From NCBI RefSeq assembly GCF_900107735.1, contig NZ_FNQV01000010.1, positions 62,001 through 126,000 of the forward strand: DNA of 64,000 bases. The letters run 5' to 3'. This document shows positions 9,819-27,280 of the stretch, in pieces. Within the stretch, counting starts at the first letter, position 1. The number at the start of each line of letters is the position of its first letter. This DNA is from Bowdeniella nasicola (GTDB lineage: Bacteria; Actinomycetota; Actinomycetes; Actinomycetales; Actinomycetaceae). Both the position numbers and the translations under genes were made by a program. Under the pieces are notes generated by a model that searched no databases, had not been told where the DNA came from, and worked only from the letters and a program-made list of their open reading frames with translations.

Positions 9819-10666
9819 GCGGCGCGGGCGATGGCGTGCGCTCGGCGGGCAATCCGGCGTTGGCGCCGCTCGCCGCGCTAGAAAACTCCGCGCGCGTGCT
9901 TTTCGCGCACGCCCACCCTGACGATGAGGCCCTAGCCACGGGCGCGCTCATCGCCCACCTTGCGAGGCGCGGCGTCAGCTGCATCGTCGTCACCGCAACG
10001 CGCGGCGAACGCGGCGAAATCCGCCCGGGCGCACTACCGCCGGGCGATACCCGCTCCCTCACCGACGTTCGCGCGACCGAACTCGCTGCCTCCTGCGCCG
10101 CGCTCGGCGTCTCCGAGCACGCGTGGCTCGGCCAGGGCAAGGCGCCCTATCTCGACTCCGGCATGCAGTGGCTGGATGCGCCGGACGAGGAGCGCGCCGA
10201 CGCATCAGCAGGCGCGGAGCCCGTCGCCGGCCCCGCTCCCGATGCGCCGCCGGAGGCCTTCACGAAGCGCCCGATCGCGGACGCCGTCGCCGATCTCGTC
10301 GAGCTCATCGAGGCCTTCCAGCCCGAGGCGATCGTTTCCTACGACGCGGCCGGGACGTATGGCCATCCCGATCACGTCCACCTGCACGAGGTGGCGCTGC
10401 GCGCGGCGAACGAGGCGCACCTGCCGATGATCGAGATCGTCTCCGAGCGCATGGGCACACCGGCGCCTGAGCTCCCGGGCTTCGAGGCGTTTCCCGGAAC
10501 GCTCAGCCAGGTTCGCGAGGCACTCGCGAGCTACGCGACGCAACTGCGGGTCATCGCGCTGCCGGAAGGCGCGGTCGACGTCGTCGAAGTAGAGCACGTC
10601 GGTGGGCAACGCCAGCGCGTCTACTGCGGAGCCGCCCTTGCCTGGGCCGAGACTTCTAGGTCCTAG
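9815..10666 (+). CDS. mshB: Mycothiol deacetylase MshB (PIG-L family)
   Basis: Zinc hydrolase expected to remove the acetyl group from GlcNAc-inositol, the second intermediate of mycothiol synthesis. It has the PIG-L metal motif AHPDDE near residue 31, and a second histidine pair in YGHPDHVHLHE. The GTG start at 9815 lies in the mshA stop (GTGA) and gives 283 residues, close to family size. Residues about 130-150 are an Ala/Pro-rich insert. A conjugate amidase (Mca) is the main alternative, but adjacency to mshA favours MshB. Confidence 0.82.
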   Translation: MSGAGDGVRSAGNPALAPLAALENSARVLFAHAHPDDEALATGALIAHLARRGVSCIVVTATRGERGEIRPGALPPGDTRSLTDVRATELAASCAALGVSEHAWLGQGKAPYLDSGMQWLDAPDEERADASAGAEPVAGPAPDAPPEAFTKRPIADAVADLVELIEAFQPEAIVSYDAAGTYGHPDHVHLHEVALRAANEAHLPMIEIVSERMGTPAPELPGFEAFPGTLSQVREALASYATQLRVIALPEGAVDVVEVEHVGGQRQRVYCGAALAWAETSRS

Positions 10667-10724
10667 CGTCGGGAAAATCGGCGAATGGTCGCCACGCGAG
10701 GCCAAATCGGGTGAGAATAGGGCC

Positions 10725-11270
10725 ATGCAGAACCCAGCCGACTGGTCGCCGATCGTGACCGAGAACCTCATGTTGCGGGCGCCGACGTCCGAGGATCAGC
10801 CGTCGATGACGAAGCTGCACTCGGATCCGCAGACCTTCATGTACCACCCGCTGCCCATCGAGGTGGCGCGCTCCATCGTCGGGCGGCGCTACGATGACGC
10901 CGTCGCGCACTGGCGCGAGCACGGGTTCGGGTTCTGGGTGGCGACGGACCGGCAGGATCCGACGCGCGTCGTTGGCATGTCCGGCGTCCAGTTCCGCACG
11001 TTCCACGACCGCCCGGCCCTCAGCCTGTACTACCGCTTCGAGCCCGGCAGCTGGGGCAAGGGCTATGCGACGCAGGCGGCGCGCGCGGCGATCGATCTGG
11101 CGCGCGAGCACCTGCCCGAATATCCGATCGTCGCGCTCACGGTGCCCGCGAACGTGCCCTCGCATCGCGTCGCCGAAAAGGTGGGGCTCGTGCGCAACGA
11201 AGAGCTCGATACCGCCCAGGAGACGCACGGCCGCAAGTTCACGCACATCTACTACGTCTCGAACTGGTAG
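10725..11270 (+). CDS. GNAT-family N-acetyltransferase
   Basis: A 181-residue acetyl-CoA-dependent acetyltransferase of the RimJ-like Acetyltransf_3 type. The N-terminal LRAPTSEDQPSM strand, the central YYRFEPGSWGKGYATQA (motif A, acetyl-CoA pyrophosphate loop) and the NVPSHRVAEKVGLV helix are visible. It is too short and single-domained to be MshD, the bipartite mycothiol acetyltransferase. Start ATG 10725. The substrate cannot be read from the sequence; it may act on a small molecule or on a protein N-terminus. Confidence 0.8.
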   Translation: MQNPADWSPIVTENLMLRAPTSEDQPSMTKLHSDPQTFMYHPLPIEVARSIVGRRYDDAVAHWREHGFGFWVATDRQDPTRVVGMSGVQFRTFHDRPALSLYYRFEPGSWGKGYATQAARAAIDLAREHLPEYPIVALTVPANVPSHRVAEKVGLVRNEELDTAQETHGRKFTHIYYVSNW

Positions 11271-11276
11271 GCGGCG

Positions 11277-12599
11277 TTGGGGGAGATCACCTCGGGCCTG
11301 CGGGGGCTCGTTGCCGTCCTCGCGACGGGCGCGCGCGTGTTTGCGCGGCACTGGCCGCAGCTCCTCACGCTGTTCTTTGCCGGGCAGGCGCTGCGGCTTG
11401 CGGCGCTGTGGCTCGCTGGTAAGGCCTCGCTGATCTCGCCGACGCTCGCAACCGTGATCCTGCCCTTCGCGCCACTCGCCACGCTGGCCTCGCTCGCGCT
11501 GATGCTGCGGGTGCTGGCGCCCTCGCTTCCGGCGTTCGCCGAGCTCGTCGGCACCTCCCGCGGCATGCGGTGGCGCTCCAACCTGCAGGCCACGGCCATG
11601 GCGCTCGTACCGTTCCTCGCGGTGTATGCCTCCAACGGCCTGCTCAAGGCCGACCTGCAGCGGTACATGTTCGACCAGTCGGGCGTCGTCTTCGCCTCGC
11701 TGGAGCGCGCCGACTTCCTATCGGACTCCTTCACCCGGCTCGCGCTTCCCACGTCGGGCATCATCATCGTCATCGTGCTGGGGGCGCTCGCGGCGCGCAA
11801 GATCATTGCGCTGAAGGAGCTTGCCAATACCTCCGGCTGGTGGGCCGCGATCTCCGCCTACCTGGAGGCGCTGTGGCTGACCGCGCTCGTCTACGTCTTT
11901 ACCGCGCGGATCGAGGAGATTAAGGCGTGGGTGACGAGCCGGAAGGTCGTCGACGATATCTACACCTGGTGGCAGACGCTGCAAGACACCTACAGCCAGA
12001 TCGAGACGCTCATTTTGGCGCCGTTCAAGTTCGTCGGCGGGCTGATTTCGTCGGCGGGTTCGCTCATCATCGTGCCCGTGGCGTGGCTGGCGATTGGCGC
12101 GACGATCTACGGCAGCCAGCTGAAAAAGGGCGATCCTGTCATCACGCACGAGATCGATACCGCGCGCATTAAGCGGGTGCCCTCCCCGGTGCGGCGGGTG
12201 GCCAAGCACGTGACGTCGCCCGTCGTGACGCCGGTGAAATCGACCTTTGACGCGATCGGCAAGGTGGCCGTTGCGGGGCTCATCCCGATGGCGCTGTTTT
12301 GCGTGATTTTTGCGCTCACCGGGTGGCTGCGCGTGGGCGTGGACTACGTCATGCGGCTGGCGATTGGGCCGCAGCCGGGAACGCTGCAGTACGCGCTCGA
12401 TCCGTTTGTCGATCTGGGGGAAAACCTCGTGTACTTCGTCGCGACGATCGTGTTGCTTGCGGCGGGCGTTAACCAGATCGTGCTCTCGCAGCGGGAGCGT
12501 CAAGCAAAGGCGGAAGCCGAGGCTGCCACTGAGGCGGCTGCCACAGGTGCGGCAGAGGCGGCTGGAGCGGAGGCTCCGGGCGAGGCGGCCGGTCGCTAG
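11277..12599 (+). CDS. Polytopic membrane protein of unknown function
   Basis: A 440-residue protein with several hydrophobic helices. Clear segments lie around residues 25-50, 55-80, 105-120, 160-175, 195-215, 245-280, 325-350 and 380-400. The C-terminal tail is Ala/Glu-rich. No enzymatic motif is visible and I do not recognise the family. The start is uncertain: TTG 11277, seven bases after the GNAT stop, or GTG 11337. The stop codon overlaps the stop of the convergent neighbour. Confidence 0.7.
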   Translation: MGEITSGLRGLVAVLATGARVFARHWPQLLTLFFAGQALRLAALWLAGKASLISPTLATVILPFAPLATLASLALMLRVLAPSLPAFAELVGTSRGMRWRSNLQATAMALVPFLAVYASNGLLKADLQRYMFDQSGVVFASLERADFLSDSFTRLALPTSGIIIVIVLGALAARKIIALKELANTSGWWAAISAYLEALWLTALVYVFTARIEEIKAWVTSRKVVDDIYTWWQTLQDTYSQIETLILAPFKFVGGLISSAGSLIIVPVAWLAIGATIYGSQLKKGDPVITHEIDTARIKRVPSPVRRVAKHVTSPVVTPVKSTFDAIGKVAVAGLIPMALFCVIFALTGWLRVGVDYVMRLAIGPQPGTLQYALDPFVDLGENLVYFVATIVLLAAGVNQIVLSQRERQAKAEAEAATEAAATGAAEAAGAEAPGEAAGR

Positions 12600-13309
12600 T
12601 CGGCGTTGGCGTCGAAGTCCAGGTAGTTCGGCGTATCCCAGTAGATGCGTACCTTGGCGGGGACCACGTCGTCGGGCATCGCGAATCCGATGGTGGAGCG
12701 CCACGAGGGCGGGCGCGGGGCCCCGGATTCTTCGAGTTTTCCAGTAAAGGCGTTGACGATCGGCCCCTCCTCACCGGGCACGAGGCAGTCGTCGACGCGG
12801 AAGAGCGGTTCGGCGCCGGGGGTATCCACGAGGGCGCTGCGCGGGTGGTAGACGTTGCCGGCTTCGTCGAAGAGCTCGATGGTGCAGCTGTCTGCGGGGA
12901 CCGATGGGTCGGCGGTGAAGGCGAAGCTGACGGCCCACTGCTTGGCGCCGTCGACCGCCTGCTTGCCGTGCAGCACGCCCACTTCCGTGACGGAGACGAG
13001 GCGGACGTCGATCGTGCGCTCGTAGGTGGTGTTGGCGATGCGGAAGCTTGAGGTGTAGGTGCCGGAATCGCCGGATGCTGGGAGCTGGTGGGTGGGCAGC
13101 GAGGGGCGGTAGAGCTCGGTGAGGCGGTAGGAGCTGGCGAACAGTGCGGCGGCGATCGCTGGGCCGAGGAGGATCAGGGCGAGGGCGTTGTCGCGCCACC
13201 AGCGGCGCTTTCGGTGGCGCTCCGCGCGGGTCGTTGGGGCGGCGGGCGCAGTGGCGTCGGCGGGCCGCGTCGCGTCGGGGCGTACCTCGGGCGCGTCGGA
13301 GAAACTCAC
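12596..13309 (-). CDS. Single-pass membrane-anchored protein, third gene of a three-gene operon
   Basis: 237 residues: a Pro/Ala/Arg-rich cytoplasmic start, one transmembrane helix at about 41-60 (ALALILLGPAIAAALFA), and an extracellular domain rich in beta strands with two cysteines (DSCTIELFDE and VDDCLVPGEE) that could pair. The layout matches the two upstream genes. The start ATG overlaps the preceding stop by four bases. The fold resembles small exported Ig-like or DUF4352-like domains only in general character. Function unknown. Confidence 0.7.
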   Translation of the reverse strand: MSFSDAPEVRPDATRPADATAPAAPTTRAERHRKRRWWRDNALALILLGPAIAAALFASSYRLTELYRPSLPTHQLPASGDSGTYTSSFRIANTTYERTIDVRLVSVTEVGVLHGKQAVDGAKQWAVSFAFTADPSVPADSCTIELFDEAGNVYHPRSALVDTPGAEPLFRVDDCLVPGEEGPIVNAFTGKLEESGAPRPPSWRSTIGFAMPDDVVPAKVRIYWDTPNYLDFDANAD

Positions 13310-13896
13310 GGCTGCCTCCGCTCGTAGCGCGTCGACTCCGCTTCGATCGACGTCGCAGCCGCGAGAATGGCGGCCGCGTCCTCGTCGGTGATCTGCAAGT
13401 CGATGTCGGCGATGTTATCGCCCCCGGCCGAGCGGTAGTTGTGCACGAGCAAGTGGCCGCCGGCGATCGCGTCGGTGGGCAGCTCGAACCAGATCGTGCA
13501 CGTGACCGGGATGCCCACGACGGATGACCCGCACGCGGTGATGCGCGGGCCGGGCTGGCTGCCGCCGTAGCGCTTGCCGTCGGCGCCGCGCCAGAAAATC
13601 GGCGAGATAACGCGCTCCTTCCCGTTCGTCGCGTAGGTAACGTCGACGACGGCGAAGATGCCGGAGGTTTTCGCCGTCGAGCCGAAGACGGTGACGTCGG
13701 TGGCGAGGCGGAGGTTGGTGGCCTTGACTTCGCCCGTGCGGATGGCCACGTACTCGTCGAGCACGCCGGCGACGGGGTAGGGCTCGGACATGATGTCCGC
13801 GCGCGTGGGCAGATAGGAGTTGATGACGCTGCCGACGGCGAAGGCGGCGGCGAGGACGGCTGCGGTGACGAGGCCGCTCGGGGTGAAGCGGCGCAT
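13306..13896 (-). CDS. Single-pass membrane-anchored protein, second gene of a three-gene operon
   Basis: 196 residues starting MRRFTPSGLV, with one helix at about 8-27 (VTAAVLAAAFAVGSVINSY) and an external domain predicted to be beta-rich. Two cysteines lie in ITACGSSVVG and PVTCTIWFELP. The ATG shares one base with the upstream stop (TGATG), so translation is probably coupled. I do not recognise the family. Conserved order with its neighbours suggests the three products form one surface complex; that is inference. Confidence 0.68.
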   Translation of the reverse strand: MRRFTPSGLVTAAVLAAAFAVGSVINSYLPTRADIMSEPYPVAGVLDEYVAIRTGEVKATNLRLATDVTVFGSTAKTSGIFAVVDVTYATNGKERVISPIFWRGADGKRYGGSQPGPRITACGSSVVGIPVTCTIWFELPTDAIAGGHLLVHNYRSAGGDNIADIDLQITDEDAAAILAAATSIEAESTRYERRQP

Positions 13897-14552
13897 CAGG
13901 GGGCTCCTGCCGCGAGGGGTTCGACCGGGATGCGGGCGATCGGATCGGTCAGACGGAAGATCTGGTGGCCGTCGAGCGAGGAGCGGCCGTCCTCCGCGCC
14001 CGTGACGACCAGTGTGACGTCCTCGCTGGTCACGGGCGCGACCGGCTGCCACGTCACGATGATGTCCGTCGGTAGGCCGGGCTGGTAGGCGCCCTGCGTG
14101 AGGCCGTCAATCACGCGGTAAATCTGCGGGTAGCGCACGGTGGTTTTCAGGGGTTCGTCGTCGACGGTGACCGTGAGCATGCCGGAATCGAGCAGGTGAG
14201 TGGCGAAGACGGTGTCCTCGATGAGGCGATCGGCGGTGTTGGTGGCCGTGAGGCGGGCCTCGATGCAGCCGTGCTCGGCGTCGAAGGCGAAGCCCGAGCA
14301 TTCCGCGACGTGCCGGGCCTCGGAAAACACCAGGGTGAAGGGGCCGGCGGTGAGCTCTTTGCCGAGCTCGATCAGCGGGAGGGCGTCCTCTTTATCGACG
14401 GCTTGGCTGGCTTTCGACCAGCCGCCGGTTGCTGCGACGACGGCGATGACGATGAGCATGACCGCGAGCGCGATGTTGCCGGGCTTGGCGACGTCCTTGA
14501 CGAGGCCGTAAAGCCGGGTCAGGCGCTCGGTTCTCGAGGGTTTCTCGCTCAC
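13896..14552 (-). CDS. Single-pass membrane-anchored protein, first gene of a three-gene operon
   Basis: 218 residues. A basic N-terminus (SEKPSRTERLTRLYGLVKD) leads into a helix at about 28-43 (ALAVMLIVIAVVAA). An external domain follows with two cysteines (VAECSGFAF and EHGCIEARL). The motif GPFTLVFSEARHV and the conserved-looking ARLTATNTADR hint at a small beta-sandwich, as in other exported actinobacterial proteins, but this is not a confident family call. First gene of the operon; its promoter should lie within 14553-14680. Confidence 0.68.
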   Translation of the reverse strand: MSEKPSRTERLTRLYGLVKDVAKPGNIALAVMLIVIAVVAATGGWSKASQAVDKEDALPLIELGKELTAGPFTLVFSEARHVAECSGFAFDAEHGCIEARLTATNTADRLIEDTVFATHLLDSGMLTVTVDDEPLKTTVRYPQIYRVIDGLTQGAYQPGLPTDIIVTWQPVAPVTSEDVTLVVTGAEDGRSSLDGHQIFRLTDPIARIPVEPLAAGAP

Positions 14553-14678
14553 GCTTGCATCGTACTTCGTTCGGGGGGCTTTATGGCGGAGTTTTCCGGG
14601 GCGGAGAGTTGGTTCCGAGGGTGGGGGGTATGGCTTGGGCCGGAGCCTAGCGTGGTCACCAGATTCCGGCCCAAGCTG

Positions 14679-14713
14679 GGCGCGCCCCTCACGGTTGCTC
14701 TAAGGGGCGCGCC
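14679..14713 (-). terminator. Hairpin downstream of the GH101 fragment
   Basis: Perfect 10-bp stem, GGCGCGCCCC at 14679-14688 and GGGGCGCGCC at 14704-14713, with a 15-base loop. It lies directly after the stop of the broken minus-strand glycosidase gene and probably was that gene's terminator. No long T-run follows. Confidence 0.55.
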
Positions 14714-14719
14714 GGTTTC

Positions 14720-15046
14720 CTACGCGTGGGAGTTGCGTCGGATGATGAGGACACCGCCACCTACGAGCAGCGCTGCCAGCAGCGCCAGGCCCGTGAGCTG
14801 GCCACCGGTAATCGGCAGTCCGGACTTTCCAGGCTTCGTCGGAGGTGCGGTTGGCTCGTCCGTGGGCTGCTCCGTCGGTTCCTCGGTCGGCGTGGCAACC
14901 GTGCACTCAACTCGGGCGTCGCCCCAGTTCGCGTGGTCGTTTCCAACCCCGTTGCCGCCGTCGCCCACAAGGAGCGTCAGCACGTCAACGCCGGTCACGT
15001 CGACGTCGATCTCGATCGAATGCCGTCTCGGTTGGCGCCGGTTTCC
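14720..15046 (-). pseudogene. C-terminal fragment of GH101 endo-alpha-N-acetylgalactosaminidase (NPCBM-like end and LPITG anchor)
   Basis: The reverse strand encodes the end of an NPCBM-type carbohydrate-binding domain (VDVTGVDVLTLLVGDGG then DHANWGDARVEC), a Thr/Pro/Glu-rich wall-spanning linker, and a sorting signal: LPITG, a hydrophobic helix (LTGLALLAALLVGGGVLII) and a basic RRNSHA tail. There is no start codon of its own; upstream is IS21. The N-terminal half of the same gene lies at 19501-20868. Upstream of IEIDVDV another frame reads ETGANRDGI, which fits the domain better and suggests an extra frameshift in the relic. Confidence 0.75.
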
Positions 15047-15141
15047 TGTGACGGCGGCCACGGCAGACTGCCCGGAGACGGCGAGATAGTTGCCCGGTCG
15101 CGGACATGAAAGTTGCCCGCTGATGGTCATGGGATCTGCCC
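15047..15141. repeat. Left IS21 end with four 23-bp-spaced motifs
   Basis: CTGCCC/TTGCCC cores at 15068, 15090, 15113 and 15136. Two helical turns of spacing place all copies on one face of the DNA, as expected for cooperative transposase binding. The innermost, CATGGGATCTGCCC, mirrors CCCATG-side sequence of the right end. Confidence 0.75.
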
Positions 15142-15240
15142 GACACGACATTCGTTGCCTCGCCGCCTTGCGCGGTTCGAGGCCCCTCCTCGGGTGCGAT
15201 AGCGGTGCTGAAGCGCCCATCGCGTCCGAGGAGGGACAAC

Positions 15241-16791
15241 ATGAAGTCTGCCGAGGAGATCATGGAAATTCTCAAAGCGTTCGATCTGACAGGGTCCTAC
15301 CGGGATGCCGGCGAGCTCGCCGGGGTCTCTCACCACACCGTCGCCCGTTACGTCACCGCCCGTGATGCCGGGCGTCTGAGCGACAAGCCCGCGGCTCGGG
15401 CGCAGCTGATCGATGAGTTCTTGCCCAAGGTTGAGGAGTGGGTGGAGAAGTCCCGCGGGAAGGTCCGCGCGGACGTGGTCCACGACAAGCTCACCGCCGC
15501 GGGGTTCACCGGGTCCGAGCGCACCACCCGCCGGGCGGTCGCGGCGGTGAAGAAGTCCTACCGGCTGGGAAGCGTGCGGGTCCACCGGCCGTGGGTCACC
15601 GAGCCGGGCCTGTGGTTGCAGTACGACTTCGGCGACGGGCCGGTGATCGACGGAGTCCGGACCGTGCTGTTCTGCGCGTGGCTGGCGTGGTCGCGGTTCC
15701 GGGTAGTGCTGGCGATTCGCGACAAGACCGCCCCGAGCGTGTTCGCGGCGCTGGACGTCACGCTGCGGCGCCTGGGCGGGGCGCCGACGTATGTGCTGAC
15801 CGACAACGAGAAGACCGTGACCGTCGAGCACGTCGCAGGGATGGCGGTCCGCAACCCGCAGATGGTGGCCTTCGCCAGGCATTACGGGCTCACCGTGTTG
15901 ACGTGTGAGCCGGCCGACCCGGCCTCGAAGGGCGGGTCGGAGTCGACGGTGAAGGTCGCCAAGGCCGACCTCGTGCCGAAGGAGACGAACCTGAGGGGCG
16001 AGTACGCCTCGTTCGCCGACCTCGAGGCCGCCTGCGCGACGTTCTGCGAGGAGGTCAACAACCGGGTCCACCGGGTCACCAGGCGCGCACCCGCGGAGAT
16101 GCTCGAGCAGGAGCGCGCCCGGCTGCATGCCCTGCCGTCGACCCCGCACACGATCGCACTGGGCACCACGAGACACGTCCCAGTGAACAGCCCGATGGTG
16201 ACGTTCGAGGGCGGGCAGTACTCCGTGCCGCACCGCCTGCTGGGTGAGACCGTCTGGGTCCGGGTCTACGGACAGGGCGCTGGTGAGCAGGTCGTCATCG
16301 TCCACGTCAGCTCCGACGGGCCCCTGGAGGTTGCCCGCCATGCTCGCGCGACCCCGGGCAGCCCGCGGATCGACGATGGGCACTTCCCGCCGGCCCCGGC
16401 CGGCGCGCTGGAGCGCAGGCCACGGCCCAAGAGCGCCGCGGAGGCCGAGTTCCTCGCGCTGGGCAACGGGGCCAGGCTCTGGTTGACCGAGGCCGCCGCG
16501 GCCGGGACGACGAAGATGCGCGTCAAGATGGCCGAGGCCGTCTCGCTGGCCAAGCTCTTCGGGCCCGGTGAGGTCGACTGGGCACTGGGTCACGCCGCCG
16601 TCCACGCCCGCTTCGCCGAGGCCGACCTGCCCTCGATCTTCAACCACCGAGCCGCCGGCACGAGCGGGGCGGTCCACCGGGCCGGGGAGGACCGGTCCCT
16701 GACCCAGGGCACCGCCGGATGGGCCGCCCTGGGCCAGCACACGGCCACCACCGGCGAGGTCGGCGCTCAGGACCAGGAGGTGGCCTCATGA
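15241..16791 (+). CDS. istA: IS21-family transposase IstA
   Basis: 516 residues. The N-terminus holds a helix-turn-helix (GSYRDAGELAGVSHHTVARYV). The rve-type DDE core has D in WLQYDFGDG, D in YVLTDNEKT and E in SKGGSESTVK, so it looks catalytically intact. A DUF4158-like/Mu-type C-terminal beta region follows (FEGGQYSVPHRLLGETVWV). ATG 15241 follows a GGAGGG ribosome site; its stop overlaps istB by four bases. Cuts and joins the element ends together with IstB. Confidence 0.93.
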   Translation: MKSAEEIMEILKAFDLTGSYRDAGELAGVSHHTVARYVTARDAGRLSDKPAARAQLIDEFLPKVEEWVEKSRGKVRADVVHDKLTAAGFTGSERTTRRAVAAVKKSYRLGSVRVHRPWVTEPGLWLQYDFGDGPVIDGVRTVLFCAWLAWSRFRVVLAIRDKTAPSVFAALDVTLRRLGGAPTYVLTDNEKTVTVEHVAGMAVRNPQMVAFARHYGLTVLTCEPADPASKGGSESTVKVAKADLVPKETNLRGEYASFADLEAACATFCEEVNNRVHRVTRRAPAEMLEQERARLHALPSTPHTIALGTTRHVPVNSPMVTFEGGQYSVPHRLLGETVWVRVYGQGAGEQVVIVHVSSDGPLEVARHARATPGSPRIDDGHFPPAPAGALERRPRPKSAAEAEFLALGNGARLWLTEAAAAGTTKMRVKMAEAVSLAKLFGPGEVDWALGHAAVHARFAEADLPSIFNHRAAGTSGAVHRAGEDRSLTQGTAGWAALGQHTATTGEVGAQDQEVAS

Positions 16792-17600
16792 GCCCGACCA
16801 CCACGACGAGCAGGAGCGTCCCGACGCTCGGAGTGCCCTCCGCAGCGCCGCTGCCCGATGACCTCGAGGCGATGCTGCGTCGTGTACGTCTGCCCCACAT
16901 CCGCCGCCATGCTCCCGAGGTCGTCGCGACCGCGAAAGCCCAACGTTGGGAACCCCTGGAGGTCCTACGAGCCCTGTTCGCCGAGGAGGCCGCCGGACGC
17001 GAACGCGCCGCGCTGACCACCCGCCGCACCGCGGCGGGGTTCCCCACCGGCAAGACCTTCGAGGCCTGGGACGAGAGCATGTCCTCGATCCCAGCACCGA
17101 CTCAGCAGGCGCTACGGACCCTGGAGTGGGTCCACCGCAAGGAGAACCTCGTCCTCTGCGGGCCCTCGGGCACGGGCAAGACGTTCCTGCTCGAGGCGCT
17201 CGGGCAGCAGGCCGTCGAGCAGGGCCTGCGGGTCTCGTGGTTCACGCTCGAGGACCTCGGCGTTCTTTTGCGCAGGCACCGCGCCGACGACACCGTCACC
17301 AAGGCCATCGCCCGCGTTCTGCGCGCCGACCTGATCATCGTCGATGACATCGGTCTGCTCTCGGTCGCCACCGACGCCGCCGAGGGCCTCTACCGTCTCG
17401 TCGACGCCGCCTACGAGAAACGGGCCGTCGCGATCAGCTCCAACCTCCACCCGGCGGCGTTCGACGAGCTCATGCCCAAGACCATCGCCACCGCGACCGT
17501 CGACCGGCTCCTGCACCACGCCCACATCTGCCAGACCAGCGGCGAGTCCGTCCGCCTCTCCCAGGCCCTAACCGGTCAGGGGGTGAAGCCCCTGGCCTGA
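16788..17600 (+). CDS. istB: IS21-family helper ATPase IstB
   Basis: 270 residues. DnaA/DnaC-like AAA+ ATPase that remodels target DNA for IstA. Walker A is CGPSGTGKTFLLEAL, Walker B is ADLIIVDDIGLL, sensor-1-like ISSNLHP follows. The N-terminal helical domain contains the RLPHIRRHAPEV segment typical of the family. ATG 16788 overlaps the istA stop and follows AGGAGG. Apparently intact. Confidence 0.93.
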   Translation: MSPTTTTSRSVPTLGVPSAAPLPDDLEAMLRRVRLPHIRRHAPEVVATAKAQRWEPLEVLRALFAEEAAGRERAALTTRRTAAGFPTGKTFEAWDESMSSIPAPTQQALRTLEWVHRKENLVLCGPSGTGKTFLLEALGQQAVEQGLRVSWFTLEDLGVLLRRHRADDTVTKAIARVLRADLIIVDDIGLLSVATDAAEGLYRLVDAAYEKRAVAISSNLHPAAFDELMPKTIATATVDRLLHHAHICQTSGESVRLSQALTGQGVKPLA

Positions 17601-17627
17601 CACCCCGGACCGTGATGGCCAACCCCT

Positions 17628-17721
17628 GGGCAGATCCCATGGCCATCACCGGGCAGAACTCGTGACTGTCACCGGGCAGGTCTCACGACCGCCTCCGGGC
17701 AGATCTCACTGTCCCTTGACA
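17628..17721. repeat. Right IS21 end with four 23-bp-spaced motifs
   Basis: GGGCAG cores at 17628, 17651, 17674 and 17697, exactly 23 bp apart, in inverted orientation to the left-end set. The array starts 28 bp after the istB stop. Confidence 0.75.
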
Positions 17722-17828
17722 TTCCTGGTCGGGTCTTGCAGGATGGTCGTCGGGACGACGTGTTGCCTTTATCACACACCGGGGGGATCGCGAGCTCCGG
17801 TTCCCAATCGTCGGACAGAGGAGTCACG

Positions 17829-19100
17829 ATGTTCAGGGCACGTTCTTTGCGAGTGGCAGCGATGGCCGCTGCTGCTGGATGTCTCGTTCTTCAAGGCGCG
17901 ATCGCGTATGCGCACGAGAGCACCAACGCGGCCGACGCCGCGCAGACGGTGGAAGTCGCCGCACCGCAGATCGAAGATCAGATCAGCGCAGCAGAGATGC
18001 AGGACTTGATGTTTGTGGCGGAGCAGAGTGGCGCTCCACTGGACGAGGTGATCGAGCGATACGCCTGGAACGACAACTTTGCCTTGGCTGCGGCGGAAAT
18101 CCGGGACACGTACCCCGACCTGTTCTCCAGTGCCGAGATTGTCGACGCGCACCACGCTTGGGTAGCCTTCAAGGGCTCCCCTCCTGAGGGGGTGCACGCC
18201 GTCCTCGATTCCTTCGCCCGCGTCGCGCCATCCGTCAAGGTTGAACTGCGAGGTGGCGAGGGCTACTCCGAACGGGAGTTGCAGGCCTCTATCGAGAGCG
18301 TTCATTACGCCGTCTACGAATCTCCGGGGGTCCGAGACGCCGCCACGAGCTTCGACGCCGCCACTCGCACGATCACGACGAGTGTCGTCCTCGCCGACGG
18401 GCTGCAAGAGTCGGTCGTCACCGACCTGAATACAACCGCACAAGAAGCGCTCGTGGCTGCCTCCGCCAAGTCGCTCGGCATCGCTGCGGTCGTGGACGTT
18501 TCCGACCGTGCGGTTCTCGGCGGGGTCGACAGTTCGAGCTATCACTACGGAGGTGAGGTTCTCTCGGGTTGCACCTCCGGGTTCGGGACCAGGGCTTCGA
18601 GCAGTACCAGCGGCACCCGCGGGATCGCCACCGCCGGTCACTGTGGCAACAGCCAGAGTGACGATGGCTCTGCGCTGACCTACCAGGGTGGGCACGTGGG
18701 GACCCACGGCGACTTCCAGTGGCACACGGGGCCAAGGACGGAGTCTGACGACTTCTATGCAGGTACCGCGAGCACGACTGAGACGACCCTTCGTGATGTC
18801 TCAGCTGTAGGGTCGCCGACCGTGGGCCAGACGCTCTGCAAGAACGGGGCGACGAACCATGCAAGCTGCCAACAGGTGCGGGCGCTGAATCACTGCAACG
18901 GAAGTGCATGCAACCTCGTGATGATGGGCGCGCGCCTGGCCGCCGGAGGGGACAGCGGCGGACCTATCTACTGGGGAAACACCGCATACGGTCTGCACCA
19001 AGGCTGGAAATACGACCCGGCTTGGCCCGCCGACCGTGACCTGTTCTCTCGGGCTGACCGGATCGACAACGCCCTCGGTGTCTGGGTTGCGACGAATTGA
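17829..19100 (+). CDS. Secreted S1-family serine protease (streptogrisin/alpha-lytic type)
   Basis: 423 residues with a signal peptide (residues 1-30, cleavage near AYA-HES), an acidic pro-region to about residue 190, and a chymotrypsin-like domain. The catalytic triad is visible: His271 in TAGHCGN, Asp307 or 308 in TESDDFYAG and Ser376 in GGDSGGPIYWG. Cysteines are placed as in the streptogrisin group. ATG 17829 follows GAGGAG. The gene starts about 108 bp after the IS21 end and overlaps a small membrane gene by four bases. It sits inside the broken GH101 gene, so it arrived by insertion or replacement. Confidence 0.88.
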   Translation: MFRARSLRVAAMAAAAGCLVLQGAIAYAHESTNAADAAQTVEVAAPQIEDQISAAEMQDLMFVAEQSGAPLDEVIERYAWNDNFALAAAEIRDTYPDLFSSAEIVDAHHAWVAFKGSPPEGVHAVLDSFARVAPSVKVELRGGEGYSERELQASIESVHYAVYESPGVRDAATSFDAATRTITTSVVLADGLQESVVTDLNTTAQEALVAASAKSLGIAAVVDVSDRAVLGGVDSSSYHYGGEVLSGCTSGFGTRASSSTSGTRGIATAGHCGNSQSDDGSALTYQGGHVGTHGDFQWHTGPRTESDDFYAGTASTTETTLRDVSAVGSPTVGQTLCKNGATNHASCQQVRALNHCNGSACNLVMMGARLAAGGDSGGPIYWGNTAYGLHQGWKYDPAWPADRDLFSRADRIDNALGVWVATN

Positions 19101-19504
19101 GAGCGAAACGTCCGCCGGGCAGCAAGGCTGCGAACCAGACCGGGCGAAAAAGAACCCGCTGGGTTGTCGCGGCCTTGCTGCTCGCGGTCGCGGTGGTCGC
19201 TGTCGCCGTCACGCTGACACGAGGCGTCTCTTGGCGCGACCAGGTTCCGGTCACTCGTGCGATCCTGTCCGCTGAGGATAGCCTCACCCTCGTGGTCAAT
19301 ACGTGCGGCGGTGAACCCGCTGTTGATCTGTTGCGCGAGCAGAACGAGACGGTGGAGGTTGCTGTCGTCTCGACTCGTACCTTCGGCGGGTCCGGGGGCG
19401 AAGATTGCCAGGACACAATCGAGGTAAAGCTCCAGGCACCGCTCGGCGATCGAAACCTGGTCGATGGTGCGACCGGCGACGACCTCGCCGTGGATAACGG
19501 CTAG
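19097..19504 (+). CDS. Small single-pass membrane protein paired with the S1 protease
   Basis: 135 residues starting TTG within the protease stop (TTGA overlap). Basic N-terminus (KRPPGSKAANQTGRKRTR), one helix at about 23-39 (VVAALLLAVAVVAVAV), then an external domain of about 95 residues with two cysteines (NTCGGEPA and GGEDCQDT). No family recognised. Coupled translation suggests it works with the protease, for example as an anchor or inhibitor; this is inference. Its stop lies at the junction with the GH101 remnant. Confidence 0.65.
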   Translation: MRAKRPPGSKAANQTGRKRTRWVVAALLLAVAVVAVAVTLTRGVSWRDQVPVTRAILSAEDSLTLVVNTCGGEPAVDLLREQNETVEVAVVSTRTFGGSGGEDCQDTIEVKLQAPLGDRNLVDGATGDDLAVDNG

Positions 19505-20868
19505 CTACCATCGGCGACAATCTTCACCTGTGCGAAGGGGTCTGCTTCGGGGCCAAGGCCAAGGTGGGCGGTGGTGCCGCGGTAGACGAACGGGCCGGGG
19601 CTGACGGTTCCGATGCGCGCGTCGCCGATCGTCGTGACGTTCGCGATCCAGCGGGCGTTGGACCCGGAGCGGGGGCCGTCGGAGGTGTTGTCGCTGACGG
19701 CGTTGGACATGAAGCCGGCCGCGAGCGCCTGCTCGTTGGCGCCGACCATGAAGCCGGTGTGGGTGCCAGGCTCTGCGGTTGCGACGTTCAGGCTCGTGTC
19801 CGGGTTCTGGGAGCGGCTGACGCCGAGCTTGCTCGTGATGATCGAGCCCTGCTGGGCGGCGGTGACGCTCTCGAGATCCAGGCCCGGGACCGCGATGCGG
19901 TGGACCTTGCTGTCCGGGTCGTTCACGTCGGTGATCGTCCAGGTCAGGACGCCGTCGGCAACCGTGATGGTGACGTTGAACGTGACGTCGAGGTCGGCGA
20001 CACTCAGGGCGTAGGTGGCGCTCGCGCCGGTGCCCGTGGGGGCCGCGACGGTGACGTCGTAAGGCTTTTCGTCGATCGTGACCTGCGTGAGGGGATCGCC
20101 GAGCTTGCCGGCGAGCTGGGCATCGCCGAGACGGTAATCGACGACCTGCGGGAAGTCAGGGTGGAGGCGGACGGACAGGCCGTCGGCACTCAGTTCGGGC
20201 GCGCCGTCGGGCACGACGATCTCGGGGCCGGGTGCTGGCGTGGGATCGGTGGGCTCGGCCGGTTCGGTCGGCTCGACGGGCTCGCTGCCGTCGTCGGTCA
20301 CGCTGAAGGCGTTGAACTCAGCGAGGGTAGCGACCTGTTCGGGGGTGTTGTTACCGCCCCAGGAGGCGTTGTAGACGACCTTGACGCAGCGCGCTGCGAC
20401 GGCGTCGAAGTCGATGACGACGTCGGCCTTGGGGTCGGTTTCTGCGGCGACATCGCCCTTGGCGACCTCGGTGAAGTCCGCCTCGCACGACTCGGCCTTC
20501 TGGATCGAGTACTGCGCCACGCGGCCGGAGCCGTTGGAGGACTGGCGCGGCGTGAGCACGACGCGGCCGAGGTCAACGGCTTCGTCAACCAGCTCGATGG
20601 TGAGGTGGTGCGGCAGCGGATCGACGCCGCCCGCCCACTTGGTGTGCCAGTAGGTTTCTTTGTTTCCATCAAGCACGAGCGCGGCGGCACCGTTGGGCGC
20701 TTCGGCACTCTCTTCGACGGAGCTCACGTCGACGATGGACATCTGGCTTTGGTCGATGGCGGTATAGACGGGCTCAGCAGCGGCAGGAGACGTGGTGGCT
20801 GGGAGGGCAAGTCCCGCACTCAAGAGACTACCTACCGCGATGACCCCAATGCTTCTTGCGAGGTTCAT
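19501..20868 (-). pseudogene. N-terminal part of GH101 endo-alpha-N-acetylgalactosaminidase, catalytic domain lost
   Basis: 455 residues of a secreted enzyme that would release core-1 O-glycans from mucins. Order: signal peptide (MNLARSIGVIAVGSLLSAG..., cleavage near AAA-EPV), an F5/8-type C (CBM32-like) domain (LVLDGNKETYWHTKW), a Pro/Thr/Glu linker, then the GH101 N-terminal beta-sandwich (GLSVRLHPDFPQVVDYRL through FVYRGTTAHLGLG). The frame stops at VKIVADGS where the family normally enters the catalytic barrel. ATG 20952 would add 28 residues. The rest of the gene is at 14720-15046; over 600 residues in between are missing. Confidence 0.8.
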
Positions 20869-21123
20869 GAACGTCTTGTGGCGACGGTAGCGCGATTCTG
20901 ATCGAACATGCAAGGTTTTGGATGAAATAGGTGGAATGCGCTCACTTTCCATCGTTTGACGGTGTGCGGAAATGATCGCTGGTCTGCTGTGTATTTGTGC
21001 AGTTTAGTCCGCACGTCTCACGTGGTGGTCGCACTATTGCGTCAGGTGTTGGTTGGTCCTAACGTCGAGCTCACCTGAGGAGCAGGTCCCCTCCTTGCTC
21101 CGGGTGTGAGCTAGGGAGATGTC

Positions 21124-22755
21124 ATGTCAATGAAGAAGCCGACGATGCGTCCGGGTGGTGATGCGAGCTCGGGCAATGGCCGCGAGCAGTGGACCGGCCA
21201 GTACGGATTTATTCTCGCCGCGATCGGCTCAGCCGTCGGGCTGGGCAATATTTGGCGCTTTCCGGGCGTCGCTTATTCCAACGGCGGCGGCGCATTCCTC
21301 ATCCCCTACCTCGTCGCGCTGCTGACGGCGGGCATTCCGATCCTGCTGCTCGATTACTCGCTCGGTCATCGCTTTCGGGGCGGGGCGCCGGCCGTCTTTC
21401 GTCGGCTCAGCAAGAACTTTGAGGTGATCGGCTGGCTTCAGGTGATGATCTCGTTTGTCATCATCACCTACTACGCCGTCATTTTGGCCTGGGCGCTGCG
21501 CTATATGTTCTTCTCTCTCAACGAGGCCTGGGGCGAGGACACGCTCGGGTTCTTTGTTGGGGACTTCTTGCAGGTAGGTCCGGCGGAGTTTTCTGCGAAG
21601 ATTGTTCCCGGGATCTTCTGGCCGCTGATCGGCTTGTGGATTGTGGCAGCGATTGTCATGGCCCTCGGGATTTCGGGCGGTCTGGAGCGCGTAAACAAGA
21701 TCTTCATGCCGCTGCTGATTGTCATCTTCCTCATCCTTGTGGTGCGGGCTCTGATGCTCCCGGGCGCGGTTGACGGGTTGAACTCCTTCTTCACACCGAA
21801 CTGGCAGGCGCTGGCCGATCCGCAGGTGTGGATCGCGGCCTATTCGCAGATCTTCTTCTCGCTGTCGGTCGCCTTTGGCATCATGCTGACCTACTCCTCG
21901 TATCTGCGGCGACGGTCCAACCTGGCGCCGACGGCGCTCGTGGCCGGGTTTGCGAACTCATCTTTCGAAATTCTCGCGGGTTTCGGAGTGTTTGCCACGC
22001 TCGGCTTCCTCGCTTTCCAGCAGGGGGTGGGCGTTAACGAATTGCAGGGCATCACTGGACCGATCTTGTCATTCGTCACGTTCCCCGCGGTGATTTCGAT
22101 GATGCCGGGCGGCCCGTTCTTCGGCGTGATTTTCTTTGCCTCGCTCGTCATCGCGGGATTCACCTCGCTGATTTCGCTGCTGCAGGTGGTCTCGTCTGCA
22201 CTGCAGGAAAAATTCGGGATGAACCGCCGGCTCGCCGCCCTCATCACGTGTGGCACGACCGGGATTCTATCGATCGGGCTGTATTCGACCACGAACGGGT
22301 TGAACGCGCTGGATGTCGTCGATAAGTTCATCAACGAACTGGGCATCGTGGCCTCGGCCATTCTCATGACACTGCTCGTGTCCTACGTCGTCAAGAAACT
22401 GCCCGAGCTACGCGCGCACATCAACCACTATTCGACGCTCGCGATCGGCCCGTGGTGGTACATCGTGATCGGGGCGCTCGTGCCGATCGTTCTGACCGTC
22501 ATCTTCGTCGCGACGGCCTACTCCCTCGTGACCGAGGGCTATGACCCGGATTCGTATTCGACATCGTTTATTTACCAGTTCGGCTGGGGCATGCTCGTGC
22601 TCGTCGTGCTGTCCGCGTTTGTCTTCACCGTCGCGCCGTGGAAGACGAACGTTGATGAGTTCGACCCCGTCGACTTCCACGAAGACGGCGCCTCGGCGGG
22701 CGTACGTCAATCCCCCGGCGCTACCGCCTCACCCGACCAAAGGAGCAACCAATGA
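21124..22755 (+). CDS. metP: Sodium-dependent NSS-family transporter, MetP-like
   Basis: 543 residues with about 12 transmembrane helices of the LeuT fold. The first helix carries the family signature FILAAIGSAVGLGNIWRFP, which forms the Na+ and substrate sites. The 4-bp-overlapping MetS-like small gene matches the two-component methionine/alanine importer MetPS of Corynebacterium, so amino-acid uptake is likely. The substrate itself is inferred from that pairing. ATG 21124 follows GGGAG. Confidence 0.87.
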   Translation: MSMKKPTMRPGGDASSGNGREQWTGQYGFILAAIGSAVGLGNIWRFPGVAYSNGGGAFLIPYLVALLTAGIPILLLDYSLGHRFRGGAPAVFRRLSKNFEVIGWLQVMISFVIITYYAVILAWALRYMFFSLNEAWGEDTLGFFVGDFLQVGPAEFSAKIVPGIFWPLIGLWIVAAIVMALGISGGLERVNKIFMPLLIVIFLILVVRALMLPGAVDGLNSFFTPNWQALADPQVWIAAYSQIFFSLSVAFGIMLTYSSYLRRRSNLAPTALVAGFANSSFEILAGFGVFATLGFLAFQQGVGVNELQGITGPILSFVTFPAVISMMPGGPFFGVIFFASLVIAGFTSLISLLQVVSSALQEKFGMNRRLAALITCGTTGILSIGLYSTTNGLNALDVVDKFINELGIVASAILMTLLVSYVVKKLPELRAHINHYSTLAIGPWWYIVIGALVPIVLTVIFVATAYSLVTEGYDPDSYSTSFIYQFGWGMLVLVVLSAFVFTVAPWKTNVDEFDPVDFHEDGASAGVRQSPGATASPDQRSNQ

Positions 22756-23039: not shown

Positions 23040-23792
23040 ATGAACACCACTCCTCGCACACACTCCCCGCTCGACCGCCGCACTGTTGTCTCAGGAGCCG
23101 CCTGGGCGGTGCCTGCAATCGCGCTCGGAACCAGCGCTCCTGCGTTCGCTACGTCCGAATGTTTAAGCATTCCGACAATCAACACGTGGAGGATGACGAA
23201 TAAGGACGTCAACGAAAAGCCGTTCCGGTTCAGGGGTAACTCCACGCTGGAAGCGATCATCGACTGGGCGTGGTGGTATAGGAACGACCGACCGGCCTTC
23301 GGCTACGGATGGGCGACCACGACGCTTCGGGTCGAGCCCGGACACCGATACACAATCAGGCTCGGCCTTGAAACCTGTAAAGGCTATAACTGGCCGGGTC
23401 CCGGATCCCCTGAATCCTGCGACACGAACAACACCACGTTGGATGTGTCGTGGATCCCCAGCGGCGGCCAGCCAGTCTCTCTTTTCAAAGGCTCGACGCA
23501 ACCGACCAGTGGGTACGAGCACTTCGAACCGCCGCACAATTGCTCTGGGCCTGTGAGAAACCGGAATCCCCTATGGAGCGGGGTGAAGAACCGAGACGTC
23601 ACCTTCGATGTGCCGTGCGGGGCGCAGAACACCGGAACGCTCCAACTGCAATTCACGGCATACCCGCACGACTTGGTGACCTCTGCAGGCAATCAGAGCA
23701 ATTATTCCAAAACGAAGTTCTCTAACCAGAACAACGATGACTGGCGCGTGACCCCAACAGTCGTGTCATGTGAGCGAATCGCCAGCTGCTAG
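23040..23792 (+). CDS. Tat-exported Cys-containing surface protein, unknown family
   Basis: 250 residues. The N-terminus has a twin-arginine-type signal (SPLDRRTVVSGAAWAVPAIAL) with cleavage near AFA-TSE. The mature part is rich in Trp, Gly, Pro and Asn and contains seven cysteines (SECLS, LETCKG, PESCDT, HNCSGP, VPCGAQ, VVSCERIASC), suggesting a disulfide-stabilised beta fold. No enzymatic motif is visible. Local base composition is lower in GC than the neighbours. An in-frame ATG at 23025 is an alternative start. Its end overlaps the convergent patatin gene by four bases. Confidence 0.7.
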   Translation: MNTTPRTHSPLDRRTVVSGAAWAVPAIALGTSAPAFATSECLSIPTINTWRMTNKDVNEKPFRFRGNSTLEAIIDWAWWYRNDRPAFGYGWATTTLRVEPGHRYTIRLGLETCKGYNWPGPGSPESCDTNNTTLDVSWIPSGGQPVSLFKGSTQPTSGYEHFEPPHNCSGPVRNRNPLWSGVKNRDVTFDVPCGAQNTGTLQLQFTAYPHDLVTSAGNQSNYSKTKFSNQNNDDWRVTPTVVSCERIASC

Positions 23793-24667
23793 CGGCCGAG
23801 GAACTCGCGGATGGCTGGGAGCTCCCGGCGGGCTTGGTCTAGGCCGAGCCGATGCGCAGCCCACAGCTTGTTCAGGTTGCGCTCACCGTTGGTGATGGGC
23901 ATGGTTTCGGGCGCAAATACGTAGGCTCGACCGGCCTTTTCCAGCTCGAAGATGTGCTCGCGCGCGTCGTTGTAGCGCACGTGCCGATCTGTTAGGGCCT
24001 CGTAGACGGCGGGATAGCGTCGGTAATGCTGGCGAATATAGCGAGAAAAGCGCTGCGGACCTTTGACGTAGGAGCGCGGCTGGGTTAGCACGATGACAAA
24101 CTTGGAAAACCCGTCGGCCTCGGCCTTGTCGATCGCGATGCCGCCGGCGCCCCCGAGGGCGCCGTCGACGTAAACCTCGCCGTCGAGGGTGACGGGCGGC
24201 ATGAGGATCGGCATCGCTGAGGAAGCTTGGACGCGCGTCATGAGATCGCGGATGTCGCCGATATCGCGCTTGGACCACCATGTTTGTTCACCGCTGCGGG
24301 CGTTGAAGCCGCCGATGCGGAAGTCGGCGGGGTTTGCCATGAACGCGTCGTAATCGAAGGGGAAGGCTTGGCCGGGCAGGCCCGAGACCTGGTAGATGTA
24401 ATGCGAGTTGAATAGGCCTTGGCCACGCAGGAAGGTGCGCCAGTTGCCAAGGAGCGGGTCGGCGGCGATTTCGACGAAGGCCTGGCGGGCGCGCTCGGGG
24501 GATTTGGCGATGTAATTGCACGTCATCGACGAACCCGCCGAGATGCCGGCCACCCAGCGAAAATCGAGCCCGGCCTCGATGAGCACGACGGCCATGGCGG
24601 AGGTGTAGGCGCCGCGCATGCCGCCGCCCTCGAAAATGAGGGCGGTGTTGGTAATTGGTTCAGTCAT
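23789..24667 (-). CDS. Patatin-like phospholipase family protein
   Basis: 292 residues of serine acyl hydrolase. The oxyanion loop is FEGGGMRGAY, the nucleophile serine is in GISAGSS, and the dyad aspartate is in VDGALGGAGG. It resembles the bacterial YjjU-type single-domain group. No signal peptide, so it probably acts on the inner membrane leaflet or on lipids in the cytoplasm. ATG 24667 chosen; longer forms upstream lack family similarity. Confidence 0.85.
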   Translation of the reverse strand: MTEPITNTALIFEGGGMRGAYTSAMAVVLIEAGLDFRWVAGISAGSSMTCNYIAKSPERARQAFVEIAADPLLGNWRTFLRGQGLFNSHYIYQVSGLPGQAFPFDYDAFMANPADFRIGGFNARSGEQTWWSKRDIGDIRDLMTRVQASSAMPILMPPVTLDGEVYVDGALGGAGGIAIDKAEADGFSKFVIVLTQPRSYVKGPQRFSRYIRQHYRRYPAVYEALTDRHVRYNDAREHIFELEKAGRAYVFAPETMPITNGERNLNKLWAAHRLGLDQARRELPAIREFLGR

Positions 24668-24768
24668 CGGCACTGAGCCTAGTCCGGCGCCCGGGCCCGC
24701 CGCACGTCGAACCGCATGGTGTGCCGAGCGGCGCGAGCAGTGCGAGCGGCTGCGGCGTGGCGGTCCCG

Positions 24769-25554
24769 CTAGGGCAGTTCGCGGCGGCGGAAGACCTCGA
24801 TGGCTGCGTAGGCGATGACGGCGGCACTCAGCAGGCTCGTCGCGATGGGGAGCCACAGCTCGGCCCCAGAGACGGATTCAGTGGCGATGCGCCCGGGCAG
24901 GGCCAGGATGCCGGCGGGGCTGTAGCGCGCGGCCGGCGGCCAGATGGCAAGGAGTTGCAAGACGAAGAACGCGCCGATGCCGATACCGGCGGCGCCGATC
25001 TGGCTGGCGAGCGCGGCCGAGGCGAGCCACGTGACCGCAAGCAGCAACGCGGCGGCGACGCACCAGGCCGCGGTGGCGGCCACGAGGCGCACCAGGACGC
25101 CGTCGGCGAAGAGCAGGGCCGTCATTCCCGCGGCGACGAGGGAGCCGAGCAGGCTCGTCGCGAGCGTGATGACAAGGCCGACGACCATCGTCGCGGTGAC
25201 GTAGGCGGCGCGCGAGACGCCGCGCGTGAGGAGGAATTGCGCGGTGCCACGCGCGACGTTGCCCGCGATCGCGCCGCCAGCGATGACGATGAGAGCGATA
25301 AGGACGATCTGGGTGAGGTTCTTTGTCCACTGGGTGGCGGCGTCGGTCGCGGTGGGCTCGGGGATGAGCTCTCTCAGGGCGGAATCGCCGAGGCTGGAGA
25401 GGATCGCGGGCAGGTAGTAGGCGGCGATGGGGCTTAAGAACGCGAAGATGGCGATGAGGACGACGATGACGACGAGGCGCGCGCCGCGCCGCCACGCGAG
25501 CCACTCGGTGGCGATCATGGTGCGCAGGCCGCTCATGGTGGTGGGGGCACTCAT
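24769..25554 (-). CDS. ABC-2-type transporter permease
   Basis: 261 residues with six hydrophobic segments, including LVVIVVLIAIFAFLSPIAAYYL at the start, a pair near 80-100, and others across the C-terminal half. It overlaps the ATPase gene by four bases, so the two form one transporter. Last gene of the PadR-led operon. Substrate unknown; drug or lipid export is common for this class. Confidence 0.82.
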   Translation of the reverse strand: MSAPTTMSGLRTMIATEWLAWRRGARLVVIVVLIAIFAFLSPIAAYYLPAILSSLGDSALRELIPEPTATDAATQWTKNLTQIVLIALIVIAGGAIAGNVARGTAQFLLTRGVSRAAYVTATMVVGLVITLATSLLGSLVAAGMTALLFADGVLVRLVAATAAWCVAAALLLAVTWLASAALASQIGAAGIGIGAFFVLQLLAIWPPAARYSPAGILALPGRIATESVSGAELWLPIATSLLSAAVIAYAAIEVFRRRELP

Positions 25555-26393
25555 GCTGCACCGCCGCGCGTGAGCTCGACGTAGACGTCCTGCAGGCTCG
25601 CGCCCACCGCGCCCGCAGAGACAATGTCCGCACCTTGGTCTGCGAGCGCGTCACGGATCGCGCCCTCGCTTTCCGGTCCCGGCAGGCGGAGGCGGACCTC
25701 GTATTCGCCGGTGGCGGATCCGCGGGCGAGGACGTCAGCGATGGGGCCTTCGGCGATCATCGCGCCGTTGTGGATCATGCCGACGTGGGTGCACACCCGT
25801 TCGACGTCGGCCAACAGGTGGGAGGAAAACAGCACCGTCGTCTTGCCGCGCAGCGAGGCGAGCAGGGCGAGGACGTCGGCGCGGCCGAGCGGATCAAGGG
25901 CCGAGGTCGGCTCGTCGAGGATGAGGAGCTCGGGTGCGGAGATGAGCGCCGTCGCGATGCCGAGCCGCTGGGTCATGCCGCGGGAGAAGCCGCCGATGCG
26001 GCCGCGCACTCGCGCAAGTCCTGCGGTCGATAGCAGTGCGGGGATGCGCGCGTCGGTCACGTCCCGCGGCGTGCCAGAAACAGCGCCCGCGAGGCGCAGC
26101 GCCTCGGGTGCGGTGAGCCACGGGTAGAGGCCGGGGACGTCGGGCAGATAGGACACGCCGCGCACGGCCGGGGCGGGCAGCGTGCCACGCTCGATACCGA
26201 GGACGGTGATCGTGCCGCTCGTAGCGGCGGCCAGGGAGAGCGCGATGCGCAGCGTCGTCGTCTTGCCGGCACCGTTGGAGCCGATGAAACCGTAGATCGC
26301 GCCGCGCGGTACGGACATATTTAGGCCGTCGAGCGCGGTGTGCTCGCCGTAGCGTTTTGTCAGGCCTGTGGCCGACAGAGCGAGATCGCTCAT
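25551..26393 (-). CDS. ABC transporter ATP-binding protein
   Basis: 280 residues. Walker A GSNGAGKTTTLRIAL, Q-loop region in SYLPDVPGLYPWLT, an ABC signature in the form FSRGMTQRL, Walker B LLILDEPTSALDP and the H-switch in FSSHLLADVERV. The C-terminal 60 residues form the extra domain usual in ABC-2 exporters. It overlaps genes on both sides by four bases. Confidence 0.92.
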   Translation of the reverse strand: MSDLALSATGLTKRYGEHTALDGLNMSVPRGAIYGFIGSNGAGKTTTLRIALSLAAATSGTITVLGIERGTLPAPAVRGVSYLPDVPGLYPWLTAPEALRLAGAVSGTPRDVTDARIPALLSTAGLARVRGRIGGFSRGMTQRLGIATALISAPELLILDEPTSALDPLGRADVLALLASLRGKTTVLFSSHLLADVERVCTHVGMIHNGAMIAEGPIADVLARGSATGEYEVRLRLPGPESEGAIRDALADQGADIVSAGAVGASLQDVYVELTRGGAA

Positions 26394-26680
26394 CTCGTAT
26401 CGTCCGTTTCGGGATAGAGGAGGTCGCTGAGAGTCTCGCCAGCTCGTTGGTCCTCGGGCGGCGCTTCACTGTGCCGCGTGCGTTCGCGGATGACGATGAT
26501 GAGGAAAATCGTCGGGCCAACGATGCCCACCAGCAGGATGACGAGGAGCCAGGCAAACTTGTTGCCCGGCAGGAGCGCGGCGTCGGTGTGCAGCCAGATG
26601 ATCGCAGCGGTGACGGCGAGGACCGCCTGCACGATGACGAGGATCGCGAGGAGTTCGAGTGGGATGCCGACGTCGATCAT
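26390..26680 (-). CDS. PLDc_N-type small membrane protein
   Basis: 96 residues with two helices (about 7-28 and 42-64). The LPGNKFAWLLVILLVGIVGP stretch matches the phospholipase D N-terminal membrane domain found as a stand-alone protein next to ABC exporters. Acidic C-terminal tail. It overlaps the neighbouring genes by four bases. Confidence 0.75.
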   Translation of the reverse strand: MIDVGIPLELLAILVIVQAVLAVTAAIIWLHTDAALLPGNKFAWLLVILLVGIVGPTIFLIIVIRERTRHSEAPPEDQRAGETLSDLLYPETDDTR

Positions 26681-27279: not shown

Positions 27280-27280
27280 G

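Follow-up and report, generated by a model that had tools for sequence, protein, structure and literature searches.

A GH101 glycosidase gene in two remnants around a protease islet and an IS21 element in Bowdeniella nasicola

In the genome of Bowdeniella nasicola (assembly GCF_900107735.1) we analysed a stretch of 64,000 nucleotides of contig NZ_FNQV01000010.1 (hereafter the window; coordinates count from its first letter), which carries two remnants of a gene for a surface enzyme of glycoside hydrolase family 101 (GH101). Comparison with a sister species makes it very probable that this gene was broken by an islet of 1.8 kb, coding on the other strand, which replaced its middle 2.97 kb, that an insertion sequence (IS) of the IS21 family found beside the islet is an insertion into joined DNA, and that what is left of GH101 is a pseudogene.

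Two remnants of one GH101 gene

The N-terminal remnant is the open reading frame (ORF) at 19501-20952 on the minus strand, with a probable start at the ATG at 20868, an N-terminus that reads as signal-peptide-like and a stop at most 3 codons from the break. It contains an F5/8 type C domain (PF00754, residues 81-203, E 9e-15) followed by the mutarotase-like domain typical of GH101 (PF18080, Gal_mutarotas_3, residues 255-481, E 1e-39). The C-terminal remnant is the ORF at 14720-15220, also on the minus strand, of which 14720-15019 is derived from GH101; it encodes the last 40 positions of an NPCBM domain (PF08305, E 2e-9), a proline- and threonine-rich linker, LPITG, a hydrophobic stretch and a closing RR, its matches to the NCBIfam LPXTG models all lying below the cut-offs.

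Three congeneric genomes were compared with that of the window (G000): the sister species G001, and G002 (76% complete) and G003. In G001 an intact GH101 gene (C35:8806-13656, L027) encodes 1616 residues with F5/8C, Gal_mutarotas_3, Glyco_hydro_101 (511-782), 101C beta-sandwich, domain 5, GalBD-like and NPCBM domains, and it aligns to EngBF (2zxq), with the best stretch at residues 276-818 (E 1e-131). Both window fragments align to this protein in order, the N-terminal one to residues 55-503 and the C-terminal one to residues 1492-1613, with 71% identity over 446 and 71% over 95 aligned codons, respectively, so the match is not due to chance. The blocks on either side of GH101 are collinear between the window and G001 and contain the same neighbours; therefore, this is the same locus. 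At the level of sequence, the comparison confirms that both fragments descend from one GH101 gene. The original prediction, made from the letters of the window, had proposed just such a split gene, on one strand and in the right order, with a signal peptide, a CBM32-like domain and the first beta-sandwich on one side and an NPCBM-like end with an LPITG anchor on the other; the domains found agree with it, the fragments belong to one protein and not to different families, and a relative has the intact gene at this locus.

DNA homology between the window and G001 ends at 15019 (G001 13279) and restarts at 19511 (G001 10307), so that 4491 bp of unrelated DNA (15020-19510), close to the 4.5 kb foreseen, occupy the position of some 2971 bp of GH101. 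The lost part begins shortly before the catalytic domain and takes in most of NPCBM, and the break on the N-terminal side lies about 10 residues ahead of the boundary between the mutarotase-like and catalytic domains (residue 500-503 versus 510/511). Measured against known GH101 enzymes (EngBF, 2zxq; SpGH101, 3ecq; the actinobacterial POGases), the window retains the outer domains of the family in the right order and is without the catalytic domain, the beta-sandwich, the GalBD-like domain and most of NPCBM; by the description in the accessible text of PMC11861894, its fit to the POGase subgroup is one of size and phylum only.

The catalytic domain (PF12905, Glyco_hydro_101), which the prediction held to be gone, had no match anywhere in G000. 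The same search was positive in G001 and G150 and negative in G002 and G003 (thus in two of five genomes, G000 included), and none of 14 control genomes matched, the positives coming from G001 and G150. In G003 a GNAT-type gene (window 10602-11270) adjoins a sodium symporter gene (window 21124-22755), GH101 and the four next genes being absent, and in G002 the gene corresponding to window 9764-10666 adjoins the symporter, with GH101, these four genes and the GNAT-type gene all absent at that place in this incomplete genome; the region is thus variable within the genus. The whole of window 11277-20952, comprising GH101 and four further genes, is missing from both.

The loss of the GH101 gene is thus real and well supported for the strain, although it rests on one assembly and one strain, and the predicted loss of a surface enzyme for O-glycan degradation holds with that limit. 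The sequence evidence indicates that the strain has probably lost GH101 activity as well. It has kept, as was also predicted, a sialidase-like gene (ORF 59983-61737, PF13088, E 4e-15), whereas a search for GH129 as a replacement enzyme (none in two genomes) was uninformative because the control matched in none of 14 genomes. It is barely conceivable that the fragments and the islet were joined only in the assembly, which is a draft of 29 contigs (99.58% complete): the junctions lie well inside a contig of 128 kb, the IS21 element and the protease gene of the islet each occur once in the genome, and the clean 6-bp duplication described below would not be expected from a misjoin.

The inserted DNA: an IS21 element and a protease islet

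The IS21-family element is complete. It occupies 15049-17721 on the plus strand (2673 bp, with the ends TGACGG...CTTGACA) between two copies of the direct repeat TTCCTG (15043-15048 and 17722-17727, plus strand), which represent the target-site duplication. It encodes, both on the plus strand, the transposase IstA (15205-16791; NF033546, 190.5 bits versus a cut-off of 160) and the helper ATPase IstB (16719-17600; NF038214, 219.3 bits versus 200), the listed ORF of the latter beginning at an in-frame upstream ATG, with the ATG at 16788 being the likelier start. Both proteins exceed their curated cut-offs, and together with the defined ends and the target-site duplication they place the element in IS21. 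It shares with the family (IS5376 model) the istA/istB tandem, repeated motifs at both ends and short direct repeats of the target, and it differs only by sequence divergence; the closest plasmid copies among the matches listed are 82% identical, and the repeat here has 6 bp versus 5 bp for the element tested in the accessible text of PMC10122671.

The ends were defined by comparison with other copies. For a query that extends past the element (15024-17740), genomes of the family gave matches whose right limit is 17721 and whose left limit falls at 15045-15053, and in plasmid records homology extends up to both ends of the element in 7 of the best 10 of 24 matching records. Four copies in family genomes could be read at both ends, each with direct repeats of 6 bp (GTGGTC, ATAGAC, CCGGAG and CACCTC, the last with its two ends on different contigs); a second copy in G106 and an interrupted copy in G101 were left out of this reading. 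Two plasmid copies have the same TGACG start. A left end at TGT (15047), with a repeat of only 4 bp, was considered and dropped, since the comparison with other copies pointed to 15049 and the 6-bp repeat.

The flank of the element on one side is a stretch of 23 bp foreign to GH101, which adjoins the C-terminal fragment, and on the other side it is the region upstream of the protease gene. As a complete IS between 6-bp repeats, it must have entered DNA in which the C-terminal fragment, the 23 bp and the upstream region of the protease gene were already joined. The original prediction had GH101 split by IS21 and accessory cargo; both do lie between the fragments, but the repeats argue against IS21 as the cutter, and the islet is the likelier cause. 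A rival explanation is that IS21 itself split GH101 and brought in the protease gene and its neighbour, as a composite element or through an IS-driven deletion, for which its position inside the disrupted region and beside the islet would speak. However, the element with its 6-bp repeats looks like a simple insertion into joined DNA, no second IS21 copy was found in G000, which leads us to reject a composite transposon, and there is no IS sequence at the other end of the islet (19510). Judged from these sequence features, a role of IS21 as the cutter of GH101 is most unlikely, and we rejected it.

The insert without IS21 and one repeat amounts to 1812 bp, the islet, whose coding direction is opposite to that of GH101. 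Its first gene (17829-19100, plus strand) encodes a serine protease of 423 residues that resembles the S1 (chymotrypsin/streptogrisin) type, with a start that reads as a secretion signal. The motifs TAGHC (H271) and GDSGGP (S376), which correspond to the His and Ser motifs of S1, are invariant in all six aligned sequences. It matches glutamyl endopeptidase of Streptomyces (1hpg) weakly (E 5e-6, residues 247-393), no Pfam family at E 0.001 and an NCBIfam serine-protease model below threshold (E 0.007); the structure model was of low quality across the protease domain (mean predicted local distance difference test, pLDDT, 48.9), which leaves the sequence match to 1hpg as the one pointer to a possible chymotrypsin fold. 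Like the streptogrisin-like S1 proteases (1hpg, 2sfa), it has a long N-terminal region ahead of the protease domain; unlike them, it belongs to a separate clade and has a small membrane-anchored neighbour. This neighbour, ORF2 (19097-19504, plus strand, 135 residues), has one hydrophobic N-terminal helix and an outer domain predicted to be all-beta. Its model was usable (mean pLDDT 79.7) and gave no match in the PDB at E 0.001 or better; no Pfam family matched at E 0.001, and the match to an anti-sigma-factor model of NCBIfam was weak and below the cut-off (E 0.0013, 18.7 bits versus 100).

A scan of a collection of species genomes gave 24 pattern stretches and six relatives: Miniimonas arenae (66%), Jiangella endophytica and four metagenome-derived genomes, one of them labelled Chloroflexi. 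In five of the six, the protease gene is immediately followed by ORF2 (which was not found in L049), and no ORF2 was seen at 14 more distant protease-like loci of the family, searched with at most 1.5 kb of flank each. In a sample of the phylum the protease clade occurred in 3 of 396 genomes, its own included, at E 1e-40; one of these hits (L084), whose match has the same positions as that of L051, may come from one and the same genome, and another (L085) showed no ORF2. Among possible mobile carriers of the islet, plasmids contributed two records (31-32% identity), and viral contigs 34 pattern stretches and no relative. An unverified record from human faeces labelled 'Bacteriophage sp.' (L086, MT837442.1) contains a homologue of the protease with 37% identity at 4788-6119 and an ORF2-like sequence at about 7008-7205, some 0.9 kb downstream. 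G001 has weak and partial matches to the protease only (best E 1.6e-7) and does not have the islet; in G000 no second copy of the protease gene was found. The protease gene and ORF2 are a conserved, rare and uncharacterised pair, not random cargo. The GC content at third codon positions is 0.73-0.74 in the islet genes versus 0.80-0.92 in a set of five host genes, which, together with the rare and scattered clade, fits acquisition from outside.

At the far junction, the stop codon of ORF2 (TAG, 19502-19504) and the opposite-strand stop of the N-terminal fragment share CTAG (19501-19504), which gives the two frames a tail-to-tail overlap of four bases. The alignment of ORF2 with its homologues runs to about their ends; ORF2 is therefore complete, and the islet ends 6 bp beyond it.

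From these data a probable course of events can be proposed. The ancestral state would be an intact gene for a cell-wall-anchored GH101 endo-alpha-N-acetylgalactosaminidase, as still present at this locus in the sister species. The islet, in opposite orientation, would then have taken the place of the middle of the gene, probably by illegitimate or homology-assisted recombination, and IS21, as its flanking repeats show, integrated by simple transposition into the DNA separating the C-terminal remnant from the protease gene, with TTCCTG left on both sides; it may have entered the islet either before or after the latter reached GH101.

We also considered a wider and more speculative proposal, which we regard as quite unlikely: that the pair is a sporadically transferred two-gene module in which ORF2 would restrain, mature or dock the protease, that its capture swapped a surface enzyme cutting mucin O-glycans for one cutting protein, and that an outward TTGACA helps to drive it. 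This hexamer, a possible outward -35 box at the right end of the IS (17716-17721, plus strand), is followed after 17 bp by CAGGAT (17739-17744), which is separated by 84 bp from the protease start and may resemble actinobacterial -10 boxes. A promoter scan of the join between IS and protease gene found no consensus promoter at its threshold, so the idea of an outward promoter is weak. In IS21 the right end carries a -35 box, according to the accessible text of PMC10122671. To our knowledge the module has not been described, an impression formed with no literature search made for it.

Constraint on the remnants

The GH101 remnants are very probably a pseudogene. The C-terminal fragment has kept the anchor and lacks a signal peptide, and the N-terminal fragment could, judging from its predicted signal, still be secreted, yet without a catalytic domain and without a wall anchor. 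Between the N-terminal fragment and G001, synonymous differences (pS) amount to 0.41 and nonsynonymous differences (pN) to 0.19 (pN/pS 0.45). By part, pN/pS is 0.30 for F5/8C, 0.61 for the mutarotase-like domain and 0.32 for the C-terminal fragment, compared with 0.17-0.63 in ten neighbouring stretches, so that no part falls outside the range of its neighbours. Among 103 columns in which at least 80% of 14 outgroup sequences agree (taken from 14 of the 23 loci L004-L026), 11 show a departure confined to the window and one a departure confined to G001; the mutarotase-like part accounts for 9 versus 1 in 48 columns and F5/8C for 2 versus 0 in 55. When the comparison was turned about, the window departed at 16 of 99 columns and G001 at 6 of 94, but 2 of the 14 outgroups departed at more than the window did, and this relative-rate test is therefore weak evidence for decay. 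Taken together, the figures give hints of relaxed constraint on the remnants.

Several observations weigh against the reconstruction given above. The frame of the N-terminal fragment is open across 483 codons with no frameshift or stop, which would be surprising in an old pseudogene that evolves neutrally, and, as the counts above show, there is little excess change in its F5/8C part. The two plasmid IS copies that were read have a direct repeat of 5 bp in one case and none in the other, so 6 bp is not universal. No repeats were seen at the ends of the islet, neither its donor nor the recombination that placed it was found, and the species was represented by a single strain.

The open frame and the signal-peptide-like start could also mean that the N-terminal fragment is alive as a secreted glycan-binding protein that does not cut, consisting of the F5/8C lectin and the mutarotase-like domain, and the pN/pS values of both parts, within the range of the neighbours, as well as the small excess of unusual changes in F5/8C, would suit such a protein. 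The mutarotase-like part, however, comes close to the upper limit of that range and shows more departures from conserved residues than its counterpart in G001, and the fragment has no wall anchor. In the actinobacterial GH101 enzyme POGase TB, glycan binding belonged to the C-terminal part, whereas the N-terminal part alone showed no glycan binding and little to no activity, according to the accessible text of PMC11861894; the binding part is lost here, which argues against a retained lectin, though the domain limits may differ. We therefore consider a living N-terminal fragment unlikely, and prefer to regard both remnants as parts of a pseudogene left by the islet.

Neighbouring tract and biological meaning

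At higher coordinates than this locus, window 23075-31202 is 93-99% identical to G001, compared with 67-83% in the other aligned blocks, and in G001 the join of this tract falls at a sodium-symporter gene without its 3' part. The tract represents either a recent recombination between species or a chimeric G001 contig. An ORF for a Mrr-type restriction endonuclease (30105-31046) lies inside it.

The mechanism as such is ordinary, a gene disruption and the insertion of an IS, and the two-gene islet is its unusual part. Since the pair of protease and ORF2 is rare, occurring in scattered actinobacterial genomes and in one metagenome bin labelled Chloroflexi, it may merit characterisation. As an outcome, the strain most likely cannot release mucin O-glycans via GH101 and may secrete a new protease. 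A mucin-degrading surface enzyme has thus been lost in one species and kept at the same locus in its sister species, and this difference may relate to their niche.

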